A stretch of 64,000 nucleotides of DNA from Paracoccus sp. MA. Lineage in GTDB: Bacteria; Pseudomonadota; Alphaproteobacteria; Rhodobacterales; Rhodobacteraceae. The notes beneath the pieces were generated by a model, which was not told the origin of the DNA, searched no databases, and saw nothing but the letters and a program-made list of their open reading frames with translations. Each line of letters begins with the position of its first letter. The stretch's first letter is position 1. Of the stretch, positions 4,186 to 52,876 are shown piece after piece. A program made the translations under genes and the position numbers. Location: NCBI RefSeq assembly GCF_020990385.1, contig NZ_CP087598.1, forward strand, positions 850,001-914,000, read 5' to 3'.

Positions 4186-4194
4186 GCTGGCTCC

Positions 4195-4806: not shown

Positions 4807-5634
<828 letters not shown>

Positions 5635-6457: not shown

Positions 6458-6511
6458 ACGCGGAACCGGAGTTCGGGTTGTTTCTGGTTTTCTAACGGGT
6501 GACAGGACGAC

Positions 6512-7596: not shown

Positions 7597-7630
7597 GACC
7601 CGCCGCAGGGCGCGGTCAGTTTTCCCTTTC
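7582..7630 (+). terminator. Rho-independent terminator after the DUF192 gene
   Basis: A perfect 10-bp GC-rich inverted repeat (7582-7591 with 7604-7613) overlaps the stop codon of the DUF192 gene. It is followed by a T-rich stretch at 7620-7630 (TTTTCCCTTT). This would end transcription of the cold-shock/DUF192 pair before the tRNA gene. Confidence 0.7.
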
Positions 7631-7665
7631 CCCCCGCGCGGCCAGCCGCTAGATAGCCCCAGGTC

Positions 7666-7742
7666 CGGGGCGTAGCGCAGCCTGGTAGCGCGACGGTTTT
7701 GGGTACCGTAGGCCGGAGGTTCGAATCCTCTCGCCCCGACCA
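7666..7742 (+). tRNA. tRNA-Pro (anticodon UGG)
   Basis: A 77-nt cloverleaf. The acceptor arm CGGGGCG (7666-7672) pairs with CGCCCCG (7732-7738), followed by discriminator A and an encoded CCA (7740-7742). The anticodon stem ACGGT/ACCGT encloses the loop TTTGGGT, giving anticodon TGG. The T-loop GTTCGAATC is canonical. No duplicated 3' end was seen downstream, so there is no sign of an integrated element using it as an attachment site. Confidence 0.97.
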
Positions 7743-7966
7743 CTCTCATGCAGATTCGGGGACGGGCCGCTTGCCGGGCCGGTCTCCGGCGCGGCTTTCG
7801 CGGCGCCGCTCGGCGATCCGGGGGCGCTGTGCCGGCCCGGCCTGCCGAAAAAGCCAGCGTGACTTTCCTGCATCACCGCCGCTTCATGACTGGATGGGCG
7901 CCCAGCTGTTTTCCGGGCGTCACGTTCGTCTGATCGAAGGTGTTTTGATGAGTAAGTGAGGTTCTC

Positions 7967-8167
7967 ATGAACGCTTGGTGGAGCGCGTCCGTCTGCATCA
8001 ACCGGACACTTGGGGGACAGCAATCCGAGCCGCTTTGCTCGCGCGTCTATCGGCAGCCGCCATCCTTCTGGCGCAGCGCCTTCATGGCGCTGATGGACCG
8101 CGTCTTTGCCGAAACGGCGCATTGCGAGAGCATTCATAGCCGCTGGCGCGACCGCCGCGGCGCCTAG
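7967..8167 (+). CDS. small hypothetical protein
   Basis: A 66-residue open frame starting with ATG after a GTGAGG that could be a ribosome-binding site. It contains 'LGGQQSEPLCSRVYR' and a C-terminal 'HCESIHSRWRD'; the Cys/His/Trp-rich composition does not look like a random shadow. I do not recognise the family. It lies between tRNA-Pro and a minus-strand small gene, and the two stop codons overlap at a CTAG. The 224 bases between the tRNA and this frame hold nothing I can identify. Confidence 0.45.
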   Translation: MNAWWSASVCINRTLGGQQSEPLCSRVYRQPPSFWRSAFMALMDRVFAETAHCESIHSRWRDRRGA

Positions 8168-8361
8168 CGCCGGCCGGACAGGGTCCGTTCCAGCTCCTCC
8201 AGCGCGGCGATGGTGGCGTCGTAGCTGTCTCCGGCCTTGGGGAAACGCGCCCTGCGGCTGCGATAGAAGGCCAGCCATTTCGGCAATTCGTCCAGCGGAT
8301 AGGTGGCGGACCAGATCTTGCCGGTCAGGGTAAAGGTGGATTCGTCATGCGTCGCTTTCAT
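8164..8361 (-). CDS. conserved small hypothetical protein
   Basis: A 65-residue soluble protein ('KIWSATYPLDELPKWLAFYR', ending 'EELERTLSGRR'). The frame stays open upstream of the chosen ATG at 8361, but that part is low-complexity and ATG-poor, so the short form is preferred. It has an amphipathic helical look with no membrane segment or catalytic motif. It is divergent from lysC across 164 bases that contain the promoters for both. The function is unknown. Confidence 0.65.
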   Translation of the reverse strand: MKATHDESTFTLTGKIWSATYPLDELPKWLAFYRSRRARFPKAGDSYDATIAALEELERTLSGRR

Positions 8362-36622: not shown

Positions 36623-37381
36623 ATGAAGCTCCTCGTGCCAGTGAAGCGCGTGATCGACTACAACGTGAAGGCGCGCGTGAAGAGCGACGGCTCCGGTGTC
36701 GATTTGGCGAATGTGAAGATGTCGATGAACCCGTTCGACGAGATCGCGGTCGAGGAGGCGATCCGTCTGAAGGAGAAGGGTCAGGCCGAGGAGGTGATCG
36801 CGGTCTCGATCGGCGTCAAGCAGGCGGCCGAGACGCTGCGCACGGCGCTGGCCATGGGCGCGGACCGGGCGATCCTGGTCGTCGCCGCGGACGACGTGCA
36901 TCAGGACATCGAGCCGCTGGCGGTGGCGAAGATCCTCGCCGCGGTGGCCAAGGCCGAGGGCACCGAGCTCATCATCGCCGGCAAGCAGGCCATCGACAAC
37001 GACATGAACGCCACTGGCCAGATGCTGGCGGCGATCCTGGGCTGGGCGCAGGCGACCTTCGCCAGCAAGGTCGAGATCGAGGGCGGCAAGGCCAAGGTCA
37101 CCCGCGAGGTCGATGGCGGCCTCCAGACCATCGCGGTCAGCCTGCCGGCGGTGGTCACCGCCGACCTGCGGCTGAACGAACCGCGCTATGCCTCGCTGCC
37201 GAATATCATGAAGGCGAAGAAGAAGCCGCTCGACGAGAAGACCGCCGGTGATTACGGCGTCGACGTCGCGCCGCGGCTCGAGGTGGTCTCGGTGCGCGAG
37301 CCCGAGGGCCGCAAGGCCGGCATCAAGGTCGGCTCGGTGGACGAGCTGGTGGGCAAGCTGAAAGAAGCGGGGGTGATCTGA
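36623..37381 (+). CDS. etfB: electron transfer flavoprotein, beta subunit
   Basis: A 252-residue subunit of the heterodimeric flavoprotein that takes electrons from acyl-CoA and other dehydrogenases to the ETF:quinone oxidoreductase. The start '[20 protein letters not shown]' and '[20 protein letters not shown]', '[10 protein letters not shown]' and '[18 protein letters not shown]' are typical. The stop overlaps the etfA start (TGATG). It is intact, unlike its upstream neighbours, which fits a housekeeping role. Confidence 0.96.
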
Positions 37382-38307
37382 TGGCTGTTCTGCTGCTTGG
37401 CGAAGTCACGAATGGCGAGCTGAACCGCGACGCGACGGCGAAGGCGGTGCAGGCGGTCAAGGCGCTTGGCGATGTGACGGTGCTCTGCGCCGGGGCCTCG
37501 GCGAAAGCGGCGGCCGAGGAGGCCGCGAAGATCGCCGGCGTGTCGAAAGTGCTGGTGGCCGAGGCCCCGCTCTACGGCCACCGCCTGGCCGAACCGACGG
37601 CGGCGCTGATCGTCGGCCTGGCCGGGGATTACGACCACATCGCCGCGCCGGCGACCACGGACGCCAAGAACGTCATGCCGCGGGTTGCGGCGCTTCTGGA
37701 CGTGATGGTGCTGTCGGACGTCTCGGCCATCCTCGACGCCGAGACCTTCGAGCGGCCGATCTATGCCGGAAACGCCATCCAGGTGGTGAAGTCGCGGGAC
37801 GCGAAGAAGGTCTTCACCATCCGCACCGCCAGCTTCGACGCGGCGGGCGAGGGCGGCGCGGCCAGCGTGGCCGAGACCGCCGCTGCCGCCGATCCCGGGC
37901 TGTCGGCCTGGGTCGCCGACGAGGTGGCCGAGAGCGACCGCCCCGAGCTGACCTCGGCCAGGCGCGTGGTCTCGGGCGGCCGCGGCCTCGGCTCGAAGGA
38001 GAGCTTCGCGATCATCGAAGAGCTGGCCGACAAGCTCGGCGCCGCGGTGGGCGCCAGCCGCGCGGCGGTGGATTCGGGCTACGCCCCGAACGACTGGCAG
38101 GTCGGGCAGACCGGCAAGGTGGTTGCCCCCGAGCTCTACGTGGCGGTGGGCATCTCGGGGGCGATCCAGCACCTGGCGGGGATGAAGGATTCGAAGGTGA
38201 TCGTGGCGATCAACAAGGACGAGGAGGCGCCGATCTTCCAGATCGCCGATTACGGCTTGGTCGGCGACCTGTTCTCCGTCGTCCCGGAACTGACCGGGAA
38301 GCTCTGA
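37381..38307 (+). CDS. etfA: electron transfer flavoprotein, alpha subunit
   Basis: A 308-residue FAD-binding subunit. The N-terminal domain starts '[20 protein letters not shown]'. The C-terminal FAD signature is present in '[20 protein letters not shown]', '[20 protein letters not shown]' and '[20 protein letters not shown]'. It is translationally coupled to etfB. Just downstream, a truncated acyl-CoA dehydrogenase start suggests that a dedicated electron donor gene was once next in line. Confidence 0.96.
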
Positions 38308-38564: not shown

Positions 38565-40013
38565 TCAAACCGACAGGCAGATGTATTTGATCTCGAGATA
38601 GTCCCCGATGCCGTAATGGCTGCCCTCGCGGCCGAGGCCGGATTGCTTGACGCCGCCGAAGGGCGCCACCTCGGTTGAGATCAGGCCGGTGTTCACGCCC
38701 ACCATGCCGACCTCCAGCGCCTCGGCCACGCGCCAGACGCGGGACAGGTCGCGGGCGTAGAAATAGCCCGCCAGCCCGAATTCGCTGGCATTGGCCAGCG
38801 CCACCGCCTCGGCCTCGGTCTCGAAGCGCCAGACCGGGGCGACGGGGCCGAAGGTCTCCTCGCGCGCGATCTTCATCGAGGGCGTCATGCCGCACAGCAC
38901 GGTCGGCTGGAAGAAGCTGCCGCCAAGCGCATGGCGCGCGCCGCCGGTGGCGATGGCCGCGCCATGCGCCCGGGCGTCGGCGATGTGGTCCTCGACCTTG
39001 GCCAGGGCCGCGTCGTTGATCAGCGGGCCGATCGCGACACCGTCGGCCTGGCCGTCGCCGACCGCCAGCGCCGCGACGCGGGCCGCGAGCTTCTCGACGA
39101 AGGAGTCATGCACGCCCGCCTGCACATAGATGCGGTTGGCGCAGACGCAGGTCTGGCCGGCATTGCGGAACTTGGCGGCCATGGCGCCCTCGACCGCCTC
39201 ATCCAGGTCGGCGTCGTCGAAGACGATGAACGGCGCGTTGCCGCCCAGTTCCAGCGACAGCTTCTTGATCGTGTCCGCCCCCTGCCGCATCAGGATCTTG
39301 CCGACGCGGGTCGAGCCGGTGAAGGTGATCTTCGCGACCTTGGGATTGGCGCAAAGCTCGGCCCCCATGCCGGCGGCATCGAGGCCGGGCACGATGTTCA
39401 GGACCCCCACCGGAATGCCGGCGCGTTCGGCCAGCACGCCCAGCGCCAGCGCCGAAAGCGGCGTGAATTCCGAGGGCCGGGCGACCATGGTGCAGCCCGC
39501 CGCCAGGGCCGGGGCGATCTTGCGCGCCAGCATGGCATTCGGGAAGTTCCAGGGCGTGATCGCGCCGACGACGCCCACCGGCTGCTTCAGCACAATCAGG
39601 CGCTTGTCGGGCATGTGGCCGGTAATGGTGTCGCCGTAGACGCGCTTGGCCTCCTCGGCGAACCATTCGACATAGGATGCGCCATAGGCGATCTCGCCCC
39701 GCGCCTCGGCCAGGGGCTTGCCCATCTCGGCGGTCAGGATGCGGGCCAGGTCCTCCTGGTTGGCCAGGATCAGGTCGTGCCAGCGCCGCAGGATGGCGGC
39801 CCGGTCCTTGCCGGTGCGCGCCGCCCAGGGCTTTTGCGCGGCCTGGGCGGCGTCGATGGCCTGGCGAAGCTCGGCAATGCCCAGATCGGCTACCTGTGCC
39901 AGTTCCTCGCCGGTGGCCGGGTTCGTCACGCTGAAAACCTTGTCGGCCGAGACGTATGAGCCGTTGATGAAGGCGCTGCCGGTCAGCAGCGAAGGATCGT
40001 TCAGGTCAATCAT
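38565..40013 (-). CDS. gabD: succinate-semialdehyde dehydrogenase
   Basis: A 482-residue NAD(P)-dependent aldehyde dehydrogenase. 'GVVGAITPWNFPNAMLARKI', the Glu in 'LSLELGGNAPFIVFDDADLD' and the catalytic Cys in 'FRNAGQTCVCANRIYVQ' are in place. The pattern 'GMVGVNTGLISTEVAPFGGV' places it in the GabD branch, which converts succinate semialdehyde to succinate. I chose 'MIDLNDPSLLTG' at 40013. It is the last gene of the long minus-strand catabolic operon that begins at 48701, which suggests that the pathway's end product enters the TCA cycle as succinate. Confidence 0.93.
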   Translation of the reverse strand: MIDLNDPSLLTGSAFINGSYVSADKVFSVTNPATGEELAQVADLGIAELRQAIDAAQAAQKPWAARTGKDRAAILRRWHDLILANQEDLARILTAEMGKPLAEARGEIAYGASYVEWFAEEAKRVYGDTITGHMPDKRLIVLKQPVGVVGAITPWNFPNAMLARKIAPALAAGCTMVARPSEFTPLSALALGVLAERAGIPVGVLNIVPGLDAAGMGAELCANPKVAKITFTGSTRVGKILMRQGADTIKKLSLELGGNAPFIVFDDADLDEAVEGAMAAKFRNAGQTCVCANRIYVQAGVHDSFVEKLAARVAALAVGDGQADGVAIGPLINDAALAKVEDHIADARAHGAAIATGGARHALGGSFFQPTVLCGMTPSMKIAREETFGPVAPVWRFETEAEAVALANASEFGLAGYFYARDLSRVWRVAEALEVGMVGVNTGLISTEVAPFGGVKQSGLGREGSHYGIGDYLEIKYICLSV

Positions 40014-40065
40014 TGCGGTTTCCGCTGTTGGCCGGTGCGAGGTGAGATCCGGCGGTGTGATGCGT

Positions 40066-41154
40066 TCATTCCTTGGTAAACACATGCGCATCCTGCGGCT
40101 GCCAGCGCACATGCAGCTTGTCCCCGCGGCTGACGCTGCCCATCATCGGATGGCCGAAGTTCAGCCGGATATAAAGCGGATCACCCCAGCTGGTGCGGGC
40201 AGTCACGGCGCTGTTGTTGCCCAGGAAAGTCACGTCCTCGATGGTCACGGGAAGCGAAGCGCCCGGCGGGCCCACCGTATCAGACAGGTCGATCCGTTCC
40301 GGGCGCAGCATCAGTTCGGCCTTGCCGCCCCGCGCGCCCGCGCCGTGCATCGGCACGTCGGCCAGATGGGTGCCGTCGGTGAAACGCAGCGTCGCGCGGC
40401 CTTCCTTCACCTCGGCCAGTTCTCCGGTCAGGAAGGCGCTGTCGCCGATGAAATCGGCCACGAAATGCGTGGCGGGACTGGCATAAAGCTCGGGTCCGGT
40501 GCCGACCTGCTCGATCCTGCCGCGGTTGAAGACGGCGATGCGGTCGGACAGGCGCAGCGCCTCTTCCTGGTCGTGGGTGACGTAGAGGATGGTCACGCCG
40601 GTCTGCTGGTGGATGCGGCGGATCTCATACTGGATTTCCTCGCGCAGCTTCTTGTCCAGCGCGGACAAGGGCTCGTCCATCAGCAGGACCGGAGGATCGT
40701 AGACCAGGGCACGGGCCAGGGCGACACGCTGCTGCTGGCCGCCGGACATGTTGGCGGGCATCCGGTCCTCGAACCCGTCGAGGCGCACCAGCGACAGGGC
40801 GCGCTTGACCTTGGCGGCGATCTCGGCTTGCGGTGCGCGGCGCACGCGCAGGGGAAAGGCCACGTTTTCGCCCACCGAAAGATGCGGGAACAGCGTGTAG
40901 CGCTGGAAGACCATGCCGATGTTGCGCTTGTGGGACGGCGTTTGCAGAATGGACTTGCCGCGCAGCCTGATGTCGCCAGCCGTCGGATCCTGGAAACCGG
41001 CCAGGATGTAGAGCGTCGTCGACTTGCCCGAGCCCGAGGGGCCGAGGAAGGTCATGAACTCGCCTTCGCCGATTTCCAGCTCGACATGGTCGGTGGCAAC
41101 GACGTCTCCAAAGGTCTTGCGAATTCCGTTGATGTGCAGATAGGGGCTGGTCAT
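40066..41154 (-). CDS. ABC transporter ATP-binding protein, polyamine/POPT type
   Basis: A 362-residue ATPase of the PotA class. Walker A '[12 protein letters not shown]', the signature '[16 protein letters not shown]' and Walker B '[19 protein letters not shown]' are complete. A C-terminal TOBE domain ('[12 protein letters not shown]') follows. It energises the two permeases and the binding protein encoded just upstream. The gabD start is 52 bases downstream. Confidence 0.95.
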
Positions 41155-41951
41155 CGGGATTTGCCTTTGCGGATCAGGGCGGCCGCGATCATCAGGACCA
41201 CGGTCAGCAGGACGAGGAGGGTCGAGGCGGCGGCGATCACCGGCGTCAGGTCCTGGCGCAGCGTGGTCCAGACCTTGACCGGCAGGGTCTGCAGCGTAGG
41301 CGAGGCCATGAAGATCGCCAGCACCACCTCGTCCCAGGAGATCAGGAACGAGAAGATCGCGGCCGAGAACAACCCGTGGCTGATCGCGGGCAGGGTGACG
41401 CGGAAGCGTGCCTCCCAGGGGCTGGCGCCGCAGAGGATCGCGGCGTCCTCGATGGAGGGGTCGAAGGTTTCTAGCGCGCCCGAGATGGTGATGATCGAGA
41501 AGGGCAGGGCGACGATCAGATGCGCGATGACGAAGCCCACCAGCGTGCCGTTCAGACCCAGCCGCAGGAAGGCGGCGTAAAGCGCGACGGCGATGATGAC
41601 CACCGGCAGGACCATCGGGGTCAGGAAGAATCCGCGCAGCACCGCGCGCCCGCGGAACCGGCCGCGCACCAGCGCCAGCGAGGCCAGCAGGCCGATGGCG
41701 ACGGAGAGCACCATGACGATGGCGGCGATCTTGGCCGAGGTGAAGGCGGCCTGCAGCCAGCGCGGATCGGCGAAAAGCTCGCCATACCATTTCAGCGTCC
41801 ATCCCGGTGGCGGAAAGATCAGCCAGCGCGAATTGCCGAAGGACAGCGCGACGATGAACAGGATCGGCAGCAGCAGGAACAGCGCCATCAGCGCGCAGAT
41901 ACCGGACAGGATCCAGCGCCAGGCGCCCAGCTTGTCGAAATTCATCAGCAT
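41151..41951 (-). CDS. ABC transporter permease, PotC type
   Basis: A 266-residue inner-membrane permease with six hydrophobic segments. It carries the EAA-type cytoplasmic loop in 'EDAAILCGASPWEARFRVTL'. Its start overlaps the stop of the other permease and its end overlaps the ATPase start, so the transporter genes are translationally coupled. It is the PotC-like half of a polyamine-type importer. Confidence 0.94.
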   Translation of the reverse strand: MLMNFDKLGAWRWILSGICALMALFLLLPILFIVALSFGNSRWLIFPPPGWTLKWYGELFADPRWLQAAFTSAKIAAIVMVLSVAIGLLASLALVRGRFRGRAVLRGFFLTPMVLPVVIIAVALYAAFLRLGLNGTLVGFVIAHLIVALPFSIITISGALETFDPSIEDAAILCGASPWEARFRVTLPAISHGLFSAAIFSFLISWDEVVLAIFMASPTLQTLPVKVWTTLRQDLTPVIAAASTLLVLLTVVLMIAAALIRKGKSR

Positions 41952-42787
41952 CAGCGGGCCTTTCCTTCGAACAGGCGCAGTTGCAGGGCATAAAGCGCCA
42001 GGGTGACGACCAGCAGGATGAAGGCGGCGGCGCCCCCCATGCCCCAGTTCAGGAGGCTCTGCACCTGCTGCACGATCAACTCGGCCAGCATCATGTTGGC
42101 GGTGCCGCCCAAGAGCGAGGGGGTGACGAAATAGCCCAGCGACATGACGAAGACCATCAGCGCCCCCGAGGCGATGCCGGGCGTGGCCAGCGGCAGCAAC
42201 ACCCGCCGTAACGCCTGCCCCTTGGTCGCACCGCAAAGCGCGGCGGCCTGCAGGATCGCGGGGTCGATCTTCTTGATCACGCCGTAGAGCGGCAGGATCA
42301 TGAAGGGCAGCATGATATAGACCATGCCGATGGTGACGCCGATCAGGTTGTTGGTCAGCTGCAGCGGTTGGTCGATGATGCCGGTGGCCATCAGCATCCG
42401 GTTGACCAGCCCGGTCTGTTGCAGAAGCACCATCCAGGCGTAGGTGCGCGCCAGCAGGTTCGTCCACATCGACAGCAGGATGATGGCGAAGACCACGGCC
42501 GCGACGCGGGACGGCATGATCGCCAGTGCCCAGGCCACCGGAAAGGCAATGAGCGCGGTGATCAGGGTGACGAGGCCCGAAACCAGGAAGGTGTTGAAGA
42601 ATATCCTCAGATAGGTGGCCGAGCCGAGCAGGGTCTCGTAATTCTGCAGGCCCGGCACCGGTTCGGTCACCGAACGGCTCAGAAGCGCCGCGACCGGGAT
42701 CACGAAGAACGCCAGAAGCAGCAGCAGGGCGGGCATGGCCATGCCAAGACCCGATCCTCGCCGGGCGGGTGTCAGGAAGGACAGCAT
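41951..42787 (-). CDS. ABC transporter permease, PotB type
   Basis: A 278-residue permease with about six membrane helices. The conserved loop is 'LQAAALCGATKGQALRRVLL'. It is the PotB-like partner of the next permease. Its gene follows the binding-protein gene by 67 bases. Confidence 0.94.
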   Translation of the reverse strand: MLSFLTPARRGSGLGMAMPALLLLLAFFVIPVAALLSRSVTEPVPGLQNYETLLGSATYLRIFFNTFLVSGLVTLITALIAFPVAWALAIMPSRVAAVVFAIILLSMWTNLLARTYAWMVLLQQTGLVNRMLMATGIIDQPLQLTNNLIGVTIGMVYIMLPFMILPLYGVIKKIDPAILQAAALCGATKGQALRRVLLPLATPGIASGALMVFVMSLGYFVTPSLLGGTANMMLAELIVQQVQSLLNWGMGGAAAFILLVVTLALYALQLRLFEGKAR

Positions 42788-42854
42788 CGGTCACCTCAGC
42801 AGAAAGAGACGGGATGGCGCAGCCCGCGAAAGCGGACTGCGGCGGGGCGACGGG

Positions 42855-43868
42855 TCATTCCGCCTGCCAGGCATACCAGCGGTTGCCGATCTCATCGCGA
42901 TGCTCGGCCCAATAGGCCATGTCGGCATTGATCTGGTTGGCGGTCTGCGCGTCGGGCAGGGTGGCGCGCAGATCGGCCTCCATCAGCGCCGGCGAGTCGA
43001 GATTGATCGGGGCGTAGCCGGTCTTGGTTGCGAAATCCGCCTGCGCCTTGGCGCTGGTCGCCTCGGCGATGAAGGCCATCGCGGCCTCCTTGTTCCTGGC
43101 GCCCTTGGGCACGACCAGGGCATCGGCGGCGGTGATGTTGTCCTGCCAGCTGATGCCGACCGGCATTCCATCCGCTTGCAGCGCGGCCAGGCGGCCGTTC
43201 CAGAACAGCCCGATCGGCGCCTCACCCGAGGCCAGCAACTGCTGGCTTTGCGCGCCGCCTTCCCACCAGATGATGCTGGACTTGATCGTGTCCAGCTTCT
43301 TGAAGGCGCGGTCGAGGTCCAGCGGATACAGCTGGTCGGCCGGCACGCCGTCGGCCAGCAGCGCCGCCTCGATCACGCCCGGGGCGGACCATTTGTAGAA
43401 GGTGCGCTTGCCGGGGAATTTCTCGGTATCGAACAAGTCGGCCATGGTCTGCGGCTGGCTGTCGCCGGAGAAGTTCGCCGGGTTCCAGCCGATCACGAAG
43501 GAATAATAGAACGATCCCACCGCGTAATCCGACACGAAGCGCGGGTCCAGCTTGGCCTTGTCGATGACGTTGAAGTCGAGCGGTTCGAGCAGCCCGGCCT
43601 TTCCGGCCTGAAGCGCCCAGTCGAATTCGGTGTCGACGACGTCCCAGGCGACGGCGCCGGCCTCGACCATGGCCTTGATCTTGCCGTAGTCGGTCGGCCC
43701 GTCCTGAAGGACGGCGGTGCCGGATTTTTCGGTAAAGGGCGCGGCCCAGAACTCCGTCTGCGCATCCTGCGTCGTGCCGCCCCAGGAGGTGAAGACCATC
43801 TGCTGGGCGTTGGCTGCACTGGCCGCCATGGCGACGAATGCGACTGCGAGAAGCGATTTCATTTGCAT
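42855..43868 (-). CDS. extracellular solute-binding protein, polyamine type
   Basis: A 337-residue periplasmic protein with a clear signal peptide ('SLLAVAFVAMAASAANAQQ'). The mature start 'MVFTSWGGTTQDAQTEFW' and 'AWDVVDTEFDWALQAGKAGL' match the PotD/spermidine-putrescine family. Related proteins bind cationic amines, but also opines, aromatic amines or sugars. Acidic residues near the start of the mature protein would fit a positively charged ligand. It delivers substrate to the downstream permeases. Confidence 0.93.
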   Translation of the reverse strand: MQMKSLLAVAFVAMAASAANAQQMVFTSWGGTTQDAQTEFWAAPFTEKSGTAVLQDGPTDYGKIKAMVEAGAVAWDVVDTEFDWALQAGKAGLLEPLDFNVIDKAKLDPRFVSDYAVGSFYYSFVIGWNPANFSGDSQPQTMADLFDTEKFPGKRTFYKWSAPGVIEAALLADGVPADQLYPLDLDRAFKKLDTIKSSIIWWEGGAQSQQLLASGEAPIGLFWNGRLAALQADGMPVGISWQDNITAADALVVPKGARNKEAAMAFIAEATSAKAQADFATKTGYAPINLDSPALMEADLRATLPDAQTANQINADMAYWAEHRDEIGNRWYAWQAE

Positions 43869-43923
43869 TGTCAGTCTCCACTGTTGGTTGGTTGCGATTG
43901 TTGCCCGGCTTGTCCGGGTTCGT

Positions 43924-45390
43924 TCAGCGCATCACGAAAGGGTCGGGGATCGGATCGTCCGAGGTTCGCAGCCACACCGTCTTGACGGTCGTATAGTCCA
44001 GCGCCGCCGCCAGCCCGCCCTCGCGTCCATGCCCCGACAGCCCATGCCCCCCAAAGGGCGCGATGGGCGAGACTGCGCGATAGGTGTTGACCCAGACCAC
44101 GCCGGCGCGGATGCCGCGGATCATCCGGTGCGCTCGCGTCAGGTCGCGGGTAAATACGCCCGAGGCCAGGCCATAGGGCGTGCCGTTGGCGATGCGCAGC
44201 GCGTCTTCCTCGGTGTCGAAGCCGACGACGGAAAGCACCGGGCCGAACAGCTCTTGGGTTACGCAGGGCGCATCGGGCACGGCGCTGCAATCAAGGATCG
44301 TTGGCGGGTAATAGAAGCCCTCGCCCTCTGGCGACTGCCCGCCGGTGATCAGCCTGGCCCCGATGGCGACCGATGCGGCGACGATCTCCTCGATCCGGGC
44401 GCGCTGGCGCAGGGTGCAAAGCGGCCCGACCTCGGTGGATATGTCGCCCGGGGCGCCGATGCGCACCGCCTCGGCCTTGGCCTTGAGCCGCGCCAGCATC
44501 TCGTCCTTGATGCCGTTCTGCACCAGAAGGCGCGAGCCGGCGACGCAGCTTTGGCCGGTCGCGGCGAAGATGCCGGCGACCTGGGCATTGGCGGCACTGT
44601 CCAGATCGGCGTCGTCGAAGACGATAAAGGGCGATTTGCCGCCCAGCTCCAGCGAGGTGCGCGACAGGTTCTCGGCCGAAGCGCGCACGATATGGCGCGC
44701 GGTTTCCGGCCCGCCGGTGAAGGCGATATGGGCGACCAGCGGATGCGTGGTCAGCGCCTTGCCGGCCTCGGGTCCGCCGGTCAGGATATTGACGACTCCC
44801 GGCGGAAAGCCTGCCTGCTGGACCAGCCGCGCGAATTCCAGCAGCGGCGCGGGCCCGTCCTCGCTGGCCTTCAGCACCGCCGTGCAGCCGGCGGCCAGCG
44901 CCGGCCCCAGCTTGACCGCCGACAGGAACAGCTGACTGTTCCAGGGCACGATGGCGGCGACGACGCCGACGGGTTCACGCCGGAGCCAGACCTCCATGTC
45001 GGGCTTGTCGATGGACAGGTGGGCGCCCTCGATCTTGTCCGCCAGACCGGCATAATAACGATAATACTCGGCCACATACGCGATCTGCGCGCTGGTCTCG
45101 CGGATGATCTTCCCGGTGTCCCGGGTTTCCAGCTCGGCAAGGTGCGGAGCCGCCTCGGCCACCAGATCGGCCAGCCGCAGCAACAGCTTGCCGCGCGCGC
45201 TGGCGGTCAGCCCCGCCCAGTCCGGCGCGTGAAAGGCGCGATGGGCCGCGCGCACGGCGCGGTCCACATCCGCCGCGCTGGCATCGGGCATTCTGGCCCA
45301 GGGCGCACCGGTGGCGGGGTCGAGGCTGTCGAAGCTGCTCGCGCCGTTCTCGAAGGCGCCGTCGATATAATGCTGGAACCGTTCCATCAC
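43924..45390 (-). CDS. aldehyde dehydrogenase family protein
   Basis: A 488-residue NAD(P)-dependent aldehyde dehydrogenase of the betaine/aromatic-aldehyde group. It has 'GVVAAIVPWNSQLFLSAVKL', 'SLELGGKSPFIVFDDADLDS' and the catalytic Cys in 'FAATGQSCVAGSRLLVQ'. It starts 'MMERFQHYIDGAFENGASSF', and its start overlaps the stop of the LLM monooxygenase gene. In the operon it probably oxidises an aldehyde formed by the monooxygenase step, before the later GabD step. Confidence 0.93.
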   Translation of the reverse strand: MMERFQHYIDGAFENGASSFDSLDPATGAPWARMPDASAADVDRAVRAAHRAFHAPDWAGLTASARGKLLLRLADLVAEAAPHLAELETRDTGKIIRETSAQIAYVAEYYRYYAGLADKIEGAHLSIDKPDMEVWLRREPVGVVAAIVPWNSQLFLSAVKLGPALAAGCTAVLKASEDGPAPLLEFARLVQQAGFPPGVVNILTGGPEAGKALTTHPLVAHIAFTGGPETARHIVRASAENLSRTSLELGGKSPFIVFDDADLDSAANAQVAGIFAATGQSCVAGSRLLVQNGIKDEMLARLKAKAEAVRIGAPGDISTEVGPLCTLRQRARIEEIVAASVAIGARLITGGQSPEGEGFYYPPTILDCSAVPDAPCVTQELFGPVLSVVGFDTEEDALRIANGTPYGLASGVFTRDLTRAHRMIRGIRAGVVWVNTYRAVSPIAPFGGHGLSGHGREGGLAAALDYTTVKTVWLRTSDDPIPDPFVMR

Positions 45391-46424
45391 GCGAAGGCCG
45401 GCATGACGTCGCCAAGGAAGCGTTCCAGCGAAGCGCGCTTGCGCTCGAAGCTCATCCCGCTGTCGATCCAGAAGCTGAACTCGTCATAGCCAAGCGCCTC
45501 GTAGGATTTGATACGCTCGATGACCTCCGGCGCTTCGCCGACGATCTGGTTCTTGCGCATTGCCTCGGGCGAATAGAAGGGGTGCTTCGCGGCCTCGGCG
45601 GGGGTGATCGTCTCGATCAGGCCCATCGAAATCGGCTTCTCGTTTTTGAACCAGGCACCGAAATAGTTGTAGAACATGTTCAGCTCTTCGGCGCCGCGCT
45701 GCGCATCCTCCTCGCTGTCGGCGACATAGGTATGGCGCAGGACCATGATCTTCGGGCGGGGCCGGCCGGAATGCTTTTCGCAGGCGGCGTTGAAACGCTC
45801 CATCAGGCTGACGACCTCCTCGTCGCCCTGATGCAGGGGCGTGACCTGGACGTTGCAGCCGTGCTCGACGGCAAACTCATGGCTGTTCGGATCGCGTGCC
45901 GCGACCCAGATCGGCGGATGCGGCTGCTGCACCGGCAGGGGCGAGGAGGTGGTCCTGGGAAATTGCCAGAATTCGCCCTGATGTTCGTAATCGCCCTGCC
46001 AGAGCTTCTGGATCGCGGGGATCAACTCGCGCATCCGCTGACCCGCGCCCCAGGCATCAAGCCCCGGCAGCATCCGCTCATATTCGAAGCTGTAGGCGCC
46101 GCGGGCGATGCCCAGGTCCAGCCGCCCTCCGGTGATGAGATCGGTCATCGCTGCCTCGCCCGCCAGCCGGATCGGATGCCAGAAGGGCGCGATCACCGTC
46201 CCGGTTCCAAGACGGACGTTCTTGGTCTGCCGGGCGATGTCGACCAGGTTCAGGAACGGGTTCGGAGAGATGGTGAAGTTCATCCCGTGATGTTCGCCCG
46301 TCCAGATGGCATGCATTCCGCCTTCGTCGGCGATACGGCAAAGCTCCAGCATCTCCTGATAGAGCTTCTTCTGGTCCTCGTCCGGCGAGACGCGCTCCAT
46401 ATGGATGAAGAGTGAGAATTTCAT
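45387..46424 (-). CDS. LLM-class flavin-dependent monooxygenase
   Basis: A 345-residue luciferase-like enzyme. The barrel begins 'MKFSLFIHMERVSPDEDQKK' and includes 'MHAIWTGEHHGMNFTISPNP', 'NVRLGTGTVIAPFWHPIRLA' and 'GGRLDLGIARGAYSFEYERM', all typical of bacterial luciferase-type FMNH2 monooxygenases. These use reduced flavin made by a separate reductase; here the reductase domain is encoded immediately upstream, with a 4-base overlap. Such enzymes cleave C-N, C-S or ring bonds of heterocycles, amines and sulfonates. The substrate is unknown. Confidence 0.93.
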   Translation of the reverse strand: MKFSLFIHMERVSPDEDQKKLYQEMLELCRIADEGGMHAIWTGEHHGMNFTISPNPFLNLVDIARQTKNVRLGTGTVIAPFWHPIRLAGEAAMTDLITGGRLDLGIARGAYSFEYERMLPGLDAWGAGQRMRELIPAIQKLWQGDYEHQGEFWQFPRTTSSPLPVQQPHPPIWVAARDPNSHEFAVEHGCNVQVTPLHQGDEEVVSLMERFNAACEKHSGRPRPKIMVLRHTYVADSEEDAQRGAEELNMFYNYFGAWFKNEKPISMGLIETITPAEAAKHPFYSPEAMRKNQIVGEAPEVIERIKSYEALGYDEFSFWIDSGMSFERKRASLERFLGDVMPAFA

Positions 46425-48127
46425 GCCCCTGCTCCCTGTTTATGCGTGACCTGACCTTCGATATGCGATCCGAAATAGACGCCGTAATTGCCAAGCCGTG
46501 ATTCCGCCGCCAGCCGATCCAGCATCGACCGGGTGGCTGGATCGCTGACGGATTTCAGATGATCCGATTCCAGCGGGACAAAGCGTCCCTTCCGCGCATC
46601 GGTCGAGGTCGCCGGGCAGCGGAAGGCGATGTGCTGGCGGCCGGGCGCCGCGCCGTCGTAGACGGCATAGATCTCGCCCGGCGCGGCGTCGGGGGCGCTA
46701 TCGCGCAAAAGCTGTGTCAAGGCGGCTTGCACGCCCTCGCGCCCGACCCGAGCTTCGGGCAGCGCCAGCCCGCCCTGTCCGTCCTCGACCAGCAGGACTT
46801 CACCCCAGGCCTCGACGATGGCGGCTATCATCACGTCAGGGCCGGTCGGCAGTTGCGCTGCGGTCTGCGCAGGCGTGATATAGGCGCCGCGGTAATATCC
46901 CAGGCCGGGCTCTTGCGAGGCGGCGAAGCCTTTGATCTCGCCGATCAGGATGGCGTGATCGCCCGCTTCGACCAGTTGCGAAAGCCGGCAGTCGAACCAG
47001 GCCGAGACGCCCGAGAGCACCGGCGACCCTGCCGGGCCGGGCGACCACTCCACCGTAGCAAAGCGATCCTCGACCGGGCGGGCGAAAGTGCCCGAGACAT
47101 CCTTCTGGCTTTCCGCCAGCACGTTGATCGCGAAATGGCCCGCATTCACGAAATGCCCGAAGTTGCGCGATGTCCTGGCGATCGAAACCAGCAGGAGCGG
47201 GGGATCCAGCGAAACCGAAGAAAAGGAGTTGGCGGTGAAACCCAGCGGCATGCCTTCCGACGTGGTGGTCACGACCGTCACACCCGTCATGAAGCAGCCG
47301 AAGGCGTCGCGCAGCGCGCGGGGATCGAATGGCGTCATATTGGTTTCGTCCCATCTGAGCCAGTTTGTCAGGGCATCGTTCACGATGTAGGGTGCCGTCA
47401 TGTTCACCATATGGCGATGCCCGGCGACGATCAGCGCACGGCCCAAGGGGATCGCATCGGCCATCTCGTGGCTCATCTGCGCGCTGGAGTTGCGGTCGCC
47501 GTCACCGGTCAGCACCAGCGTCGGGCAGGCGATTTCAGCCAGTCGGTCGGCATAGATCGTATCGCCCTCGGCAAAGGCGCGGTAAGCAGTGGCGTAACCC
47601 TGCGGGTCGATACCGTCCAGCCAGTGCGCCACCTTGTTGCGGATGGCGACCTGATTGGGGCCGAACCAGCGGATCAGCGGTGCTTCGTTGTCACCTTCGC
47701 CGCGGGCGATCTCGTCGGCGCGGGCCAGGACGGCGGCGCGAGCCTCGGGCGAGCGGCGATGGACCGCGTTGAGCAGTGCCAGGCGCCGGACCAGGTCGGG
47801 ACGCTCGACCGCCAGGCCAGCCGCGACCAGCGCCCCCATGGAATGGCCGGCCAAATTGACCGGCCCAAGTCCCAGCGCCTCGACCAGACGCGCCGCCCAA
47901 GCGACGAAATCTGGCAGGTGCGCGTCTGCCGGCAGCGGGGACGAGGCACCATGTCCCGGCATGTCCACCGCGATGACATGGTGATGGGCGGACAGAGCAT
48001 CTATCTGCGGCTCCCAGGCCTCGGCCCGCATGCCGACGCCATGGATCAGCAGCAAGGGCTCACCGCGCCCGGCCTCGATCAGCCGGACGGTGGCGCCGTC
48101 AGACAGCGGCAGGGTTCGAGACATCAT
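46421..48127 (-). CDS. alpha/beta-hydrolase fused to a flavin reductase
   Basis: A 568-residue two-enzyme fusion. Residues 1-265 are an alpha/beta-hydrolase: oxyanion 'LLLIHGVGMRAEAWEPQI', nucleophile Ser in 'GPVNLAGHSMGALVAAGLA', and late His in 'VAGHRHMVNM'. Residues about 270-430 are a flavin reductase of the FMN-binding split-barrel type: 'FGCFMTGVTVVTTTSEGMPL', 'GFTANSFSSVSLDPPLLLV', 'HFAINVLAESQKDVSGTFAR'. About 130 further residues follow with no motif that I recognise. The reductase would supply FMNH2 to the overlapping LLM monooxygenase, and the hydrolase would cut the oxygenated product. The start overlaps the AA_synth gene by 29 bases. The junction reads through without a stop. Confidence 0.9.
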   Translation of the reverse strand: MMSRTLPLSDGATVRLIEAGRGEPLLLIHGVGMRAEAWEPQIDALSAHHHVIAVDMPGHGASSPLPADAHLPDFVAWAARLVEALGLGPVNLAGHSMGALVAAGLAVERPDLVRRLALLNAVHRRSPEARAAVLARADEIARGEGDNEAPLIRWFGPNQVAIRNKVAHWLDGIDPQGYATAYRAFAEGDTIYADRLAEIACPTLVLTGDGDRNSSAQMSHEMADAIPLGRALIVAGHRHMVNMTAPYIVNDALTNWLRWDETNMTPFDPRALRDAFGCFMTGVTVVTTTSEGMPLGFTANSFSSVSLDPPLLLVSIARTSRNFGHFVNAGHFAINVLAESQKDVSGTFARPVEDRFATVEWSPGPAGSPVLSGVSAWFDCRLSQLVEAGDHAILIGEIKGFAASQEPGLGYYRGAYITPAQTAAQLPTGPDVMIAAIVEAWGEVLLVEDGQGGLALPEARVGREGVQAALTQLLRDSAPDAAPGEIYAVYDGAAPGRQHIAFRCPATSTDARKGRFVPLESDHLKSVSDPATRSMLDRLAAESRLGNYGVYFGSHIEGQVTHKQGAGA

Positions 48128-48701
48128 GGCCCAGATCCTTCAGATCCTGATAGCGGTCTCCGATGCGGTGATGCGGGCGCCCGCCGATCGAGGCACCAAG
48201 CGCGACGACGATCTCGTCGGCGGCCGGGGCATCCGGGATCGCGAACTGGATCGTCAGATAATGCGAGCGGCGGCCCTCGTCGTTCTTGTCCATCAGCGGG
48301 ATCATGATCGGGGCGTTCGCCGGGCCGCGGGTGTTGGTGAAGGCCAGATAGGATTTCGCCCCCACCGCGCTGCGGTAATGGTTGCCGAAGCGCAGCGTGT
48401 GGATCAGCGCGCTGGCATGCTCGACCTCGCCATCGAGGCCGACCACGGCGGCCTTGCCATAGGCTTCGACCTTGCCGCCGCCGCCGGCGGCCTCGATCAC
48501 CATATCGGTCAGCAACTCGCCGAGGATGGGGGCGACGGCGTGGATTTCCGGCTTGAGGTCGTCGACATAACCGCGCCCCGCCCAAGGGTTCTTCAGCACG
48601 GCGGCGGCAGTGATCAGCTTCAAAGGCTGCGGCGCGGCGCGACCGCCTTCGATCAGCGTGGTCTCGATATTCAGCAAGGTCTTGCGGATTTCCGCTGTCA
48701 T
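48099..48701 (-). CDS. amino acid synthesis family protein (AA_synth, DUF1185)
   Basis: A 200-residue cytoplasmic protein. The start 'EIRKTLLNIETTLIEGGRAA' and 'LKLITAAAVLKNPWAGRGYV', 'YGKAAVVGLDGEVEHASALI' and 'IMIPLMDKNDEGRRSHYLTI' match the AA_synth/DUF1185 family. The family name comes from an old proposal; the real activity is not settled. It is first in the operon, next to the divergent regulator, so it is probably a pathway enzyme acting on the monooxygenase product or on the substrate before it. Confidence 0.88.
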   Translation of the reverse strand: MTAEIRKTLLNIETTLIEGGRAAPQPLKLITAAAVLKNPWAGRGYVDDLKPEIHAVAPILGELLTDMVIEAAGGGGKVEAYGKAAVVGLDGEVEHASALIHTLRFGNHYRSAVGAKSYLAFTNTRGPANAPIMIPLMDKNDEGRRSHYLTIQFAIPDAPAADEIVVALGASIGGRPHHRIGDRYQDLKDLGHDVSNPAAV

Positions 48702-48734
48702 GGCAGCCCCCAGAGCGATTCGATGATCGGAAGA

Positions 48735-48744
48735 TGGTATACCA
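48735..48744. promoter_or_regulatory. GntR/FadR-type operator TGGTATACCA
   Basis: A perfect 10-base palindrome in the 101-base gap between the divergent operon and the GntR gene. The TGGT-N-ACCA layout is the usual form of operators bound by FCD-type GntR regulators. Its location would let the regulator control both directions. Confidence 0.65.
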
Positions 48745-48802
48745 ACATGTCATATGTCAATATGAGATTGTATTGGCATTCCAGCTGCGCTAGTCTCGCA
48801 CC

Positions 48803-49510
48803 ATGACAAATGAACAACCCGCCAGCCTGCGCATCGAGCATGTGCCCCAGACGCTTCGCGAGCTTGCGGTGGAGCGCTTGCGCGCCGCGATCATGTCGGG
48901 GCGCTTTCCGTCCGGTTACCGGCTCGTCGAACGGACGCTGGTCGATCAGCTGGGCGTCTCGCGATCCGTCATCCGCGAGGCGATCCGCTATCTGGAGGCC
49001 GAGGGCCTGGTCGAGATCCGGCCCCGGCAAGGGCCGATCGTCGCGACCCTCGACTGGGACAAGGCCCGGCAGATCTATGACATCCGCCTGCGGCTGGAGG
49101 CGGCGGCGGCGGCGGATTGCGCCAGGCTTCTCGACGCGTCTGCCCGTGCCGATCTGCAGGCCGCGCTTCAGCGCCTCAAGGAAGCCTTTCTATCCGACGA
49201 TCCTCAGGTGCTCTATGATGCGACGACGCGGTTTTACGAGGTTATCTTCGTCACCGCCGGGCATCACATCGCCTGGGAGATCGTCCAGCGCCTCAACGGG
49301 CGCATTTCGCGACTTCGGGCGCTGACACTGGCCTCGACCGACCGGCATGTATCGGGGCAGGCCCGGATGCAGCGCATTGCCGAGGCGATTTTCGCGCAAG
49401 ATCCGGACCGGGCAAGCGAAGCCGTGCGCGAGCATCTGACCGAAGCCGCGGAAATCGCGAGCAAACTGCTGCATGTGGCCAATGAGGGCGCTCGAAGGAC
49501 GGGGCAATGA
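48803..49510 (+). CDS. GntR family regulator, FadR/FCD subfamily
   Basis: A 235-residue regulator. The N-terminal winged HTH contains 'LVERTLVDQLGVSRSVIREA' and 'IRYLEAEGLVEIRPRQGPIV'. The C-terminal FCD domain has 'IYDIRLRLEAAAAADCARLL' with the metal-binding His/Asp pattern spread over residues 100-220. Such proteins usually repress catabolic operons until the substrate or an intermediate binds. It faces the catabolic operon and overlaps the next gene by 4 bases, so it is co-transcribed with the DUF1330 and CMD genes. Confidence 0.94.
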   Translation: MTNEQPASLRIEHVPQTLRELAVERLRAAIMSGRFPSGYRLVERTLVDQLGVSRSVIREAIRYLEAEGLVEIRPRQGPIVATLDWDKARQIYDIRLRLEAAAAADCARLLDASARADLQAALQRLKEAFLSDDPQVLYDATTRFYEVIFVTAGHHIAWEIVQRLNGRISRLRALTLASTDRHVSGQARMQRIAEAIFAQDPDRASEAVREHLTEAAEIASKLLHVANEGARRTGQ

Positions 49511-49806
49511 GTGCATATTGGATCGCCCACGTGACTGTTCACGACCCGGCGGCCTATGCCGGGTATCAGGCGCTGGCTCCCAAGGCCTTCGCGAAGTTCG
49601 GTGCAGAGTTCCTGGCTCGCGGCGGCGCATCCGAGACCTTGGAAGGTCCCGTCCTCCAGCGCCATGTCGTGATCCGGTTTCCCGATCTGGCCCGTGCCCG
49701 CGACTGCTTTTATTCTCGGGAATATCAGGAAGCACGTGCTTGCCGCGATGGCGCATGCGAAGCGCATGTCGTGATTGTGGAAGGCGCTTCGGACCCGTCG
49801 TCCTGA
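49507..49806 (+). CDS. DUF1330 family protein
   Basis: A 99-residue protein of the ferredoxin-like dimeric alpha/beta-barrel type: 'YWIAHVTVHDPAAYAGYQAL', 'EGPVLQRHVVIRFPDLARAR' and 'EYQEARACRDGACEAHVVIV'. The biochemical role is unknown; relatives often sit in catabolic clusters. It overlaps the regulator stop (ATGA) and is 51 bases ahead of the CMD gene. Confidence 0.9.
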   Translation: MSAYWIAHVTVHDPAAYAGYQALAPKAFAKFGAEFLARGGASETLEGPVLQRHVVIRFPDLARARDCFYSREYQEARACRDGACEAHVVIVEGASDPSS

Positions 49807-49857
49807 TGCGGGTTGGCTTGGAAGCCGGTGAATGACCAAGTGAGAAGGGATAGCGCG

Positions 49858-50265
49858 ATGGCCGAAGATCAGGAACTGTTCGACAAGGGCCTGCCGATCC
49901 GGCGCGAGGTGTTGGGCGCGGACTATGTCGACAGTTCGATGCAGCGGGCGGACGACTTCATGATGTCGTTTCAGCGGGCGACCACGGCTTGGGCCTGGGG
50001 CTGGGCCTGGGGCGATCCGACCCTGGACCGCAAGACGCGCAGCCTGCTGAACCTTGCCATGCTGACCGCGCTAGGCCGCACCCCCGAGATCAAGCTGCAT
50101 GTGCGGGGTGCACTGAACAACGGCGTCACCGTGGACGAGATCCGCGCTACATTGCTGCATGCCACGGCTTATTGCGGCATCCCGGCCGGCCTTGATGCCT
50201 TCAAGGCGGCGCATGAGGTCCTGTTGGCCGAAGGGGCCGTTCCCAAGCCGGATGCAGGCGAGTAG
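49858..50265 (+). CDS. carboxymuconolactone decarboxylase family protein
   Basis: A 135-residue protein of the CMD/AhpD-like fold. The start 'LFDKGLPIRREVLGADYVDS', then 'LDRKTRSLLNLAMLTALGRT' and 'EIKLHVRGALNNGVTVDEIR' and 'LLHATAYCGIPAGLDAFKAA' are typical of 4-carboxymuconolactone decarboxylase relatives. There is a Cys and His in the last motif but not the CxxC pair of AhpD. It is the last gene of the regulator operon and may act on a lactone or enol intermediate. The sequence after it, up to the IS66 element, holds only a broken frame. Confidence 0.9.
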   Translation: MAEDQELFDKGLPIRREVLGADYVDSSMQRADDFMMSFQRATTAWAWGWAWGDPTLDRKTRSLLNLAMLTALGRTPEIKLHVRGALNNGVTVDEIRATLLHATAYCGIPAGLDAFKAAHEVLLAEGAVPKPDAGE

Positions 50266-50578: not shown

Positions 50579-52077
50579 CTACCCGTTCCATCGCCAGGGC
50601 AGCAGGTCGTCGACCTTGGTGATCCTGTAGTCTGGGATGCGGGCGATGGTGTCGGCGAGCCAGGCGTGGGGATCGATTGCGTTGAGCTTGGCGGTTTCGA
50701 TCAGCGTGTAGGCGATGGCAGCTGTCTTGCCGCCCGCTTCTGATCCGAAGAAGAGGTAGTTCTTCCGCCCGAGGGCTATGGCGCGCATTGCGCGTTCGGC
50801 GGCGTTGTTGTCGAGCTCGAGGATGCCGTGATCAAGGTAGGGGGCAGGCGCTCCATGCGAGTTAGCGCATAGCGGATGGCGGCCGCGAGTGGGGATTTAC
50901 CCGAGATCGTGGTGAGCTGCATGGCCAGCCAGACCTCGAGATCGTCGAAGACCGGGGCGGCATGGGCGCGGCGGAGTTGCGCGCGAGGGTCAGGCGGCGA
51001 GCCTCGGGCCTCCTTCTCGACGGCGTAGAGCTGGGCGATCCGGGCGATGGCCTCTTCGGCGATGGGGGACGCCTGCGACCGGTGGATGTCGACGAACTTG
51101 CGCCGGACATGAGCCATGCAGGCAACTTCGCGGATGGCTCCGGAGCGATAGAGGTCCTCGAACCCGGCATAGCCATCGGCATGCATCCAGCCGCGGAACC
51201 GGGCGAGGTGATCCTTGGGGTGCTGGCCCTTCCGGTCGCCGGAGAACCGATACCATGCCGCTGGTGGAGCATCCCCGCCCCAGGGGCGCTCGTCACGGGC
51301 ATAGGTCCAGAGCCGCGCGGTCTGGGTCTTGCCGGTGCCCGGCGCCAGCATCTGAACGGGCGTGTCATCCACGAAGATCGCTTCGGCCGACAGGACATGG
51401 CGCCCGATGGCCTCGGACAGCGGTTCCAGCAGGGCGGTGGTCTTGCCGACCCAGTCCGCCAGAGTAGAGCGGTCGAGGTCGATACCTTCGCGCTCGAAGA
51501 TCTGGCTCTGGCGATAGAGGGGAAGATGGTCGGCATATTTACTGGCCAGGACATGGGCCAGCAGGCCAGGCCCGGGACGGCCGCGCTCGATGGGGCGCGT
51601 CGGCAGCGGGGCCTGGACGAACCGTTCGCAGCAGGCGCAGGTCAGCCGGGGCCGCACGATCCGGTTCACGATGAAGCGTCCCGGCACATACTCCAGCTCT
51701 TCGGTCACATCCTCGCCGATCCGGCGCAGCCGCCCGCCGCAATCGGCGCAGGCCTCGGCGCCCGGGGTCAGTTCCACTTCCATCCGCGGGATGTGATCCG
51801 GGATCGGCCGGCGCTTGGGGCGGTCCTTCTCCTCGATGTCCGGCAGCTTCATCCGCGCCGTCATCGCGGCAGCGGCGATCTCGCTGGTCTCGAGCGCCAG
51901 TTGCAGCTGCTCGGCCGTCTCCGACGAGGCTCCGAACCGCTGCGCCCGGTGCCCGGCCAACTGGTGGCGCAGCTTCTCGATCAGGATCGCCTGCGCCTTC
52001 ACCTCGGCCAGAAGCCGCGCGGTGAAGCTGCGAAGCTCCTCGGGGTCGTCCGGCAAGGTCAGGGTGTGATCGAGCAT
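50579..52077 (-). pseudogene. tnpC: IS66 transposase TnpC, frameshifted near its end
   Basis: The first 420 or so codons (52077 down to about 50800) are a complete IS66 transposase core with 'LRHQLAGHRAQRFGASSETA', the zinc-type 'CADCGGRLRRIGEDVTEELE', 'GYAGFEDLYRSGAIREVACM' and 'HVRRKFVDIH'. Near 50805 a single-base loss shifts the frame. The proper end is found in the next frame ('DHGILELDNNAAERAMRAIA', 'RKNYLFFGSEAGGKTAAIAY'). The catalytic Glu region lies after the break, so the protein as read would be inactive unless the shift is a sequencing error. Confidence 0.88.
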
Positions 52078-52136
52078 GGGAGAAGTCTATCTCACGGGAT
52101 TCCTTGTGGGAATCCTGCGATTGCATGCCCCTTGGA

Positions 52137-52484
52137 TTAGCCTGCCGCCAAGGGCCTCCAGGTCCGCTCCGGCGCGCGCCAGTCGATCCCTTCCAGGAGC
52201 ATCGACAGCTGCGCCGGCGTCAGCGCCACCTTGCCTTCCTTCGCCGAGGGCCAGACGAACCGCCCCTTCTCCAGCCGCTTCATGAACATGCAAGCCCCTT
52301 GCCCGTCCCACCAGATGACCTTCACCAGATCGCCACGACGGCCCCGGAACACGAACAGATGCCCGGCGAACGGGTCCTGCTTCAGCACGGCCTCGGCCTG
52401 CGCCGCGAGCGCTGCAAAGCCCTTGCGCATGTCCGTCACCCCGGCCGCCAGCCAGACCCTCGTAGTGGCCGGAACCGGGATCAC
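52137..52484 (-). CDS. tnpB: IS66 accessory protein TnpB
   Basis: A 115-residue protein with '[20 protein letters not shown]', '[20 protein letters not shown]' and '[20 protein letters not shown]', the standard IS66 TnpB pattern. It is required with TnpA and TnpC for transposition. The start overlaps the tnpA end by 4 bases. Confidence 0.96.
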
Positions 52485-52876
52485 GCCGTGAGACCCCGGA
52501 TCAGCCGCGCCAGCGCCTCGGGATCATAGCTCCCGCTGATCCGCATCCGGTGACCGCCGGCCAGCTCGATCTCGATGCGGTTCTCGGCGACAGGCGCTGC
52601 CGCAGGTGCTTGCTCTTCCGCGACTATCTCTACCGGCAAAAACCGCGCCTCCTCCGACGAGGCCGGAACCGACGCCGGGTCGGGCGCAAAGCGGGGATCG
52701 CGCAACCACTTGAAGATCAGGTTCGCATTGACCGCGTAGCGTCGCGCCACCTGCGCTACCGAAACGCCCGGCGCAGCCGTCTGGAAACAGATCGACCGCT
52801 TCTCCTCATCCGTCCAGAGCCGCTTCGTCCGACGCGCCACGCCATCACCATAGTGTCCACTATCGATGGTGGACAC
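52481..52876 (-). CDS. tnpA: IS66 accessory protein TnpA (HTH)
   Basis: A 131-residue protein with a helix-turn-helix start ('[20 protein letters not shown]', then '[11 protein letters not shown]'), and a C-terminal '[20 protein letters not shown]' domain typical of IS66 TnpA. It begins 28 bases inside the right end of the element. Confidence 0.95.

Follow-up and report, generated by a model that had tools for sequence, protein, structure and literature searches.

Background

In the tgn pathway for the use of trigonelline (N-methylnicotinate), known from Acinetobacter baylyi ADP1, an intermediate is split at the TgnD step into CO2, formate, methylamine and succinate semialdehyde. The trigonelline ring is opened by TgnA/TgnB (PMC8269262), and TgnE-dependent oxidation of succinic semialdehyde is stimulated by TgnF, a DUF1185 homologue (PMC7913881). 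Trigonelline, a betaine common in plants, is high in coffee and is reported from Medicago nodules. Among the binding proteins of ATP-binding cassette (ABC) importers, Atu4243 of Agrobacterium fabrum has been described as specific for gamma-aminobutyric acid (GABA) and solved with GABA bound (PMC6829864, PMC12999171). Pf622 of Pseudomonas fluorescens, on which the GABA sensor iGABASnFR is built, is likewise described as a GABA receptor. Here, we examine a cluster in a 64,000 nt stretch of the Paracoccus sp. MA genome (contig NZ_CP087598.1, positions 850,001 to 914,000; hereafter the window), in which genes for a luciferase-like monooxygenase (LLM), further catabolic enzymes and an importer face a GntR regulator gene, with a putative operator, TGGTATACCA, between them. 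The original prediction, made from the sequence, had taken the importer to be polyamine-like and the substrate to be possibly one not yet described.

Relationship to the tgn pathway

By its likeness to annotated systems, the cluster is very probably a tgn operon for the use of trigonelline. A search of a plasmid collection with the LLM protein gave 1193 records, including a plasmid of Acinetobacter sp. PK01, and the window LLM is 75.7 % identical over its full length (345 aa) to the PK01 protein annotated as TgnB, flavin-dependent trigonelline monooxygenase oxygenase. The remaining PK01 enzymes share 70.8 % (aldehyde dehydrogenase, ALDH, TgnC), 72 % (AA_synth), 56 % (hydrolase), 52 % (reductase, TgnA) and 55 % (succinate-semialdehyde dehydrogenase, SSADH) identity with their counterparts in the window, and the proteins of the regulator side share 57 % (GntR), 55 % (DUF1330) and 49 % (carboxymuconolactone decarboxylase family, CMD). 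The PK01 region has the order DUF1330 and GntR, then, divergently, AA_synth, hydrolase, tgnA, tgnB, tgnC, cytosine permease, hypothetical protein, SSADH and CMD; only tgnA, tgnB and tgnC are named in the record, and the names tgnD to tgnF were assigned in this analysis. Seen through PK01, the window shares with the A. baylyi ADP1 pathway all six catalytic or helper proteins, the order AA_synth-hydrolase-reductase-LLM-ALDH, the divergent GntR and DUF1330 genes and the presence of a CMD protein. It differs from PK01 in that the hydrolase and reductase are fused, a four-gene ABC importer stands where PK01 has the cytosine permease gene, and the CMD gene lies on the regulator side.

An operon with the same genes in the same order, including the importer and SSADH, is found on Sinorhizobium meliloti pSymA and Rhizobium johnstonii pRL10, though there the hydrolase and reductase are separate, a NIPSNAP gene lies between the ALDH and binding protein genes, and the GntR gene is on the same strand. 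The S. meliloti proteins are 81 % (AA_synth), 77 % (permease 1), 73 % (permease 2), 67 % (ATPase) and 66 % (SSADH) identical to those of the window. This copy lies between noe and nif genes; the title of a paper by Goldmann (1991) assigns genes for trigonelline to the symbiotic region of pSym. For the AA_synth gene, too, a role has been described, since TgnF is a DUF1185 homologue that stimulates TgnE (PMC7913881); the DUF1185 structures 3byq and 2qtp share 36–38 % identity with its product. In an alignment of three hydrolase sequences, the same Ser, Asp and His, assigned by motif, stand at the putative catalytic positions.

The enzymatic steps can be transferred by orthology from the Acinetobacter system. 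Trigonelline would be imported by the ABC system, and the TgnA half of the fusion would give reduced flavin to the oxygenase TgnB, which is predicted to cleave the N-methylpyridinium ring to a product that closes to a formamido-methylene-hydroxybutyrolactone (the PK01 record words the TgnC substrate in this way). TgnC would oxidise this compound, the hydrolase half (TgnD) would split the TgnC product into the four compounds listed above, and succinate would be made by TgnE with the help of TgnF. The methylamine may then enter an N-methylglutamate-type pathway encoded elsewhere in the genome, and GntR may act as a repressor at TGGTATACCA, to be released by the substrate or a pathway intermediate. 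A candidate for the methylamine route is the N-methylglutamate-type gene set at about 619–630 kb of contig 3, where genes for GXGXG, glutamate-synthase-like and type III ligase proteins, sarcosine-oxidase-like subunits and FolD lie in a row; the ligase scores 645 bits (cut-off 470) and was taken as the gamma-glutamylmethylamide synthetase (GMAS) kind. Genes of this sort also adjoin tgn genes elsewhere: glnT and glutamate-synthase-like genes do so in Aquabacterium olei, and sarcosine-oxidase-like genes and folD in PK01.

The original prediction thus stands in part. An LLM oxygenase and flavin reductase of the kind that opens N-heterocycles, a linked importer and an end in succinate are all borne out at the level of sequence, and nine coupled minus-strand genes facing a GntR gene with TGGTATACCA are confirmed by gene calls, family matches and recurrence in relatives. 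The substrate, in contrast, need not be sought among undescribed ones, as close relatives of the cluster belong to the described trigonelline pathway, and the resemblance of the importer to polyamine systems holds only at the superfamily level. What looked like an orphan pathway is now assigned; the pathway is already known, and the Paracoccus cluster is a member with a fused TgnD-TgnA and an Atu4243-type importer.

Conservation of the gene set and operator

The gene set, which the original prediction had proposed to look for in other genomes, recurs widely. The loci compared (83) comprised the best 80 of at least 563 relatives from a genome scan and three plasmid regions, and an ALDH gene follows the LLM gene in every one. 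Upstream DNA of 3 kb or more was available for 79 loci, and in these AA_synth was found in 79, the hydrolase in 78, the reductase in 75 and a divergent GntR gene in 70, with AA_synth, hydrolase and reductase all preceding the LLM gene in 75. Within Paracoccus (125 genomes), the LLM is present in 13 at E 1e-60 or better and AA_synth in 17, and all 13 genomes with the LLM also have AA_synth. In one Paracoccus genome (G091, L105/L106) the LLM gene is in two frames, either a real change or an assembly error. The NIPSNAP gene between the ALDH and binding protein genes (L090, 12516–12842; same place in L129, L130, L132, L142 and L147) was seen in rhizobia and Aquabacterium and is absent from the window, where a DUF1330 gene adjoins the regulator gene.

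Of 80 upstream regions, 68 contain an exact TGGTATACCA at a distance of 37–53 bp from the AA_synth gene, in agreement with the predicted operator beside GntR. Among the remaining 12, a site with a single mismatch is present within 200 bp in 11, although in three of these it is distant, at −133 to −136; L059 has no such site. Elsewhere in these loci (1.58 Mb) the exact sequence occurs three more times, and the reversed pattern is absent. In the Paracoccus sp. MA genome itself the 10-mer is not special, occurring at two places (the second inside a permease open reading frame, ORF) compared with four for the reversed control, and a promoter scan found nothing above chance. However, because the gene set recurs in relatives and the position of TGGTATACCA is conserved, the cluster with its TGGTATACCA is more than chance.

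The importer binding protein and its gene company

The new point is the importer, which suggests a link between trigonelline and the 'GABA' binding proteins. The closest solved relatives of the binding protein are Atu4243 (4eq7/4euo; 71.8 % identity) and Pf622 (6dgv/9d57; 64.8 %), over the parts compared; though both are described as GABA receptors, their homologue in the window sits in a trigonelline-type operon. The published GABA site comprises W9, T13, F100, Y102, W202, R205, D228 and Y264, with Y102 engineered from F (PMC12999171). When these positions were mapped by alignment, with the numbering offset fitted to the letters, the window protein had the Atu4243 residues (W, T, F, Y, W, R, D, Y) at all eight. 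The alignment has 50 rows, with at least six proteins present twice; 46 rows agree with the window protein at all eight positions, one is cut short and three have F at 102, namely Pf622, which in this differs from the window protein and Atu4243, L020 and L140. All 21 further binding proteins also have the same eight. This pocket, with five aromatic residues, an Arg and an Asp, would also suit N-methylpyridinium carboxylate, and therefore the pocket alone cannot tell GABA from trigonelline.

The gene company was examined in regions chosen by their binding protein, not by their LLM, and tgn-type genes were found in 42 of 43. Twelve plasmid regions were picked from 231–232 records, with each genus represented once or twice, and every one holds genes for AA_synth, hydrolase, reductase, LLM and ALDH in the stretch; in one of them (Caballeronia, L143) the tgn core is on the opposite strand, some 10 kb from the binding protein gene. 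The genome samples, which may include strains near the plasmid hosts, contributed two of three regions for a class (385 genomes; three of four positive genomes, our own aside), 7/7 new positive genomes for a phylum (398 genomes) and 21/21 regions for a family taken as Rhizobiaceae (297 genomes; 21 of the 38 positives, chosen by strand and best match). One 2.3 kb stretch (L137, genome G462) was left out of the 43. In the family sample, a 95 % homologue of Atu4243 (L215) is found in the order AA_synth-hydrolase-reductase-LLM-ALDH-binding protein-permeases-ATPase-SSADH. In the phylum sample, two 96 % homologues of Pf622 (L158 and L159) are near a distant LLM (47–48 % identity) with AA_synth, hydrolase, ALDH, reductase and CMD genes; with L160 and L161 included, the Pf622 homologues range from 96 to 83 %, the LLMs from 47 to 50 % and the flavin reductase matches from 30 to 34 %, always with AA_synth, hydrolase, ALDH and a GABA-type importer.

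From the gene company and the shared pocket, we lean slightly towards the view that the Atu4243/Gts/Pf622 'GABA' receptor family serves in the uptake of trigonelline or closely related pyridinium betaines, with GABA as a similarly charge-spaced mimic. A literature search, with subscription journals mostly outside it, found among the matches listed no paper joining Atu4243, GABA, binding protein and trigonelline (the best match joined three of the four), and an earlier remark may exist. If the family does bind trigonelline, existing accounts of GABA uptake by plant-associated bacteria would have to be reconsidered, and iGABASnFR, the GABA sensor used in living brain tissue, could respond to trigonelline, a dietary ligand. 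We know of no trial of iGABASnFR against trigonelline.

Alternative readings

Alternatively, the importer may truly serve GABA and owe its place in the operon to succinate semialdehyde, the compound to which GABA and trigonelline both lead, with trigonelline entering by another way. We consider this rather doubtful. The Gts system of Rhizobium leguminosarum transports GABA, and the pRL10 region of R. johnstonii is presumably the gts operon (pRL100242-252). The discoverers of gts reportedly described the transporter for GABA and suspected a more complex GABA precursor, a description that trigonelline would fit. In addition to the GABA-bound structure and described specificity of Atu4243 (PMC6829864, PMC12999171), the GABA-contact positions are conserved, and many tgn clusters have no Atu4243-type importer. 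The presence of tgn-type genes in nearly all regions fetched for the binding protein argues the other way, as does the aminotransferase needed for GABA use: none is among the nine window genes and none is listed in any of 11 annotated relatives, though their gene tables are incomplete. SSADH is likewise unlisted in four of these 11 (Shinella L142, Mesorhizobium L131 and L144, and Pararhizobium L147). Several observations weigh against trigonelline uptake as the role of this importer. L140 (binding protein 59 % identical) has no tgn-type gene within about 9–10 kb on either side; of the 71 loci with sufficient downstream sequence, only 13 have all four importer genes on the same strand within 8 kb, a count that leaves out Burkholderiaceae copies on the other strand; and some tgn clusters carry a cytosine-permease-like transporter. 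Hence, the reverse link, from tgn cluster to Atu4243-type importer, is loose. The clusters of L158–L161 and of L139 (2933–13699), where an LLM (38 %), an AA_synth (58 %) and a PucR-type regulator adjoin the same importer type, may act on other compounds.

Degradation of another pyridine or pyridinium compound (pyridine, homarine, nicotinate) by the same enzyme logic is very improbable for the window cluster. The Arthrobacter pyridine pathway does use an LLM oxygenase, a reductase, an aldehyde dehydrogenase, an amidohydrolase and SSADH, and divergent second clusters (in Caballeronia L063, and in L158–L161) indicate that substrates may differ within the family, but the identity of the window LLM to an annotated TgnB is high. 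As to homarine, it has been argued that TgnA/TgnB are unlikely to act on it, and Ruegeria pomeroyi grows on it less effectively than on trigonelline (PMC8269262). A sulfonate, sulfone or polyamine utilization operon, which the LLM and PotD-like superfamilies in general might suggest, is scarcely credible, as the scores are far below the model cut-offs for SsuD (34 of 518 bits), SfnG (48 of 383) and PotD (46 of 582, with the binding protein).

The assignment of the cluster to trigonelline also has points against it. The PK01 gene names are record annotation, presumably automatic, and likeness to A. baylyi ADP1 was judged through that annotation and citing papers; the reductase gene is absent before the LLM gene in four of 79 loci; and no match was found on the R. 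pomeroyi megaplasmid (the chromosome was outside the search), although growth on trigonelline is reported. The substrate may be a close analogue of trigonelline.

Fusion of TgnD and TgnA

A single open frame spans the hydrolase and reductase in the window and in 11 of the 77 loci having both (six of the 83, in which one or the other is missing, were left out). On the LLM tree (84 rows) the fused state needs five changes, gains or losses, a number forced by well-supported branches, and, outside the 77, two Mesorhizobium regions as well as L162 and L163 also have one frame over both. The fusion arose or was lost several times. PDB entry 3rh7, a stand-alone reductase named 'Hypothetical oxidoreductase' with no function in its name, matches residues 261–560 of the fusion, nearly the whole reductase half, and is identical at 310 of 311 aligned residues to the TgnA-like protein of the S. 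meliloti operon. It thereby gains a likely function, that of TgnA.

Gene calls and surroundings

The features are listed in Table 1. The genome (4.47 Mb) is in three contigs, and the cluster is on the 2.39 Mb contig; the nearest named loci are in Paracoccus sp. MKU1 (LLM 100 % identical) and P. aminovorans (98 %). The nine minus-strand genes run from AA_synth to SSADH, with the GntR, DUF1330 and CMD genes divergent on the plus strand. Five of the eight joints overlap (AA_synth/fusion by 29 nt, fusion/LLM, LLM/ALDH and permease/ATPase by 4 nt, and permease/permease by 1 nt), and gaps of 55 and 67 nt flank the binding protein gene and 52 nt precede the likely SSADH start. That start is Met34 (position 40013) of an ORF of 515 aa (38565–40112). 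AA_synth is the sole match of its family in the genome, and the LLM the sole match at E 1e-60 or better. An ORF at 48124–48753 was rejected as the AA_synth gene, being in the wrong frame with no family match.

Table 1. Features of the tgn-like cluster, in window positions
Feature	Position	Strand	Basis
tgnE-like SSADH	38565..40013	-	TIGR01780, 704 bits (cut-off 646)
ABC ATP-binding protein (start inferred)	40066..41154	-	ABC_tran and TOBE_2
ABC permease 2 (start inferred)	41151..41951	-	PF00528 inside ORF 41151-42794
ABC permease 1	41951..42787	-	PF00528
Substrate-binding protein, Atu4243/Pf622 type	42855..43868	-	Sequence comparison
tgnC-like aldehyde dehydrogenase	43924..45390	-	PF00171
tgnB-like LLM flavin monooxygenase	45387..46424	-	PF00296, E 1.5e-59
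tgnD-tgnA fusion: alpha/beta hydrolase (about residues 1-260) and flavin reductase with C-terminal domain (about residues 263-568)	46421..48127	-	Abhydrolase and Flavin_Reduct domains
tgnF-like AA_synth/DUF1185	48099..48701	-	PF06684, E 2e-69
Putative operator TGGTATACCA, between divergent units	48735..48744		Conserved at this place in relatives
GntR/FCD regulator	48803..49510	+	PF07729, PF00392
DUF1330 protein	49507..49806	+	PF07045, E 5e-33
CMD-family protein (likely start 49858)	49813..50265	+	PF02627, E 1e-23

Caballeronia L063 (about 3186–8224), L066 and L071 carry an additional back-to-back cluster in which AA_synth, hydrolase, reductase, LLM and ALDH genes are all present again, possibly a pathway for another pyridinium compound; the two LLMs of L063 are 61 % identical. 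The importer region of L140 (9891–13631) adjoins a 2-oxoglutarate (2OG)-Fe(II) oxygenase gene. In the window, IS66-type transposase genes (50776–52876) are found near the end of the cluster that carries the CMD gene, and an electron-transfer-flavoprotein pair (36623–38307) converges on the SSADH end.

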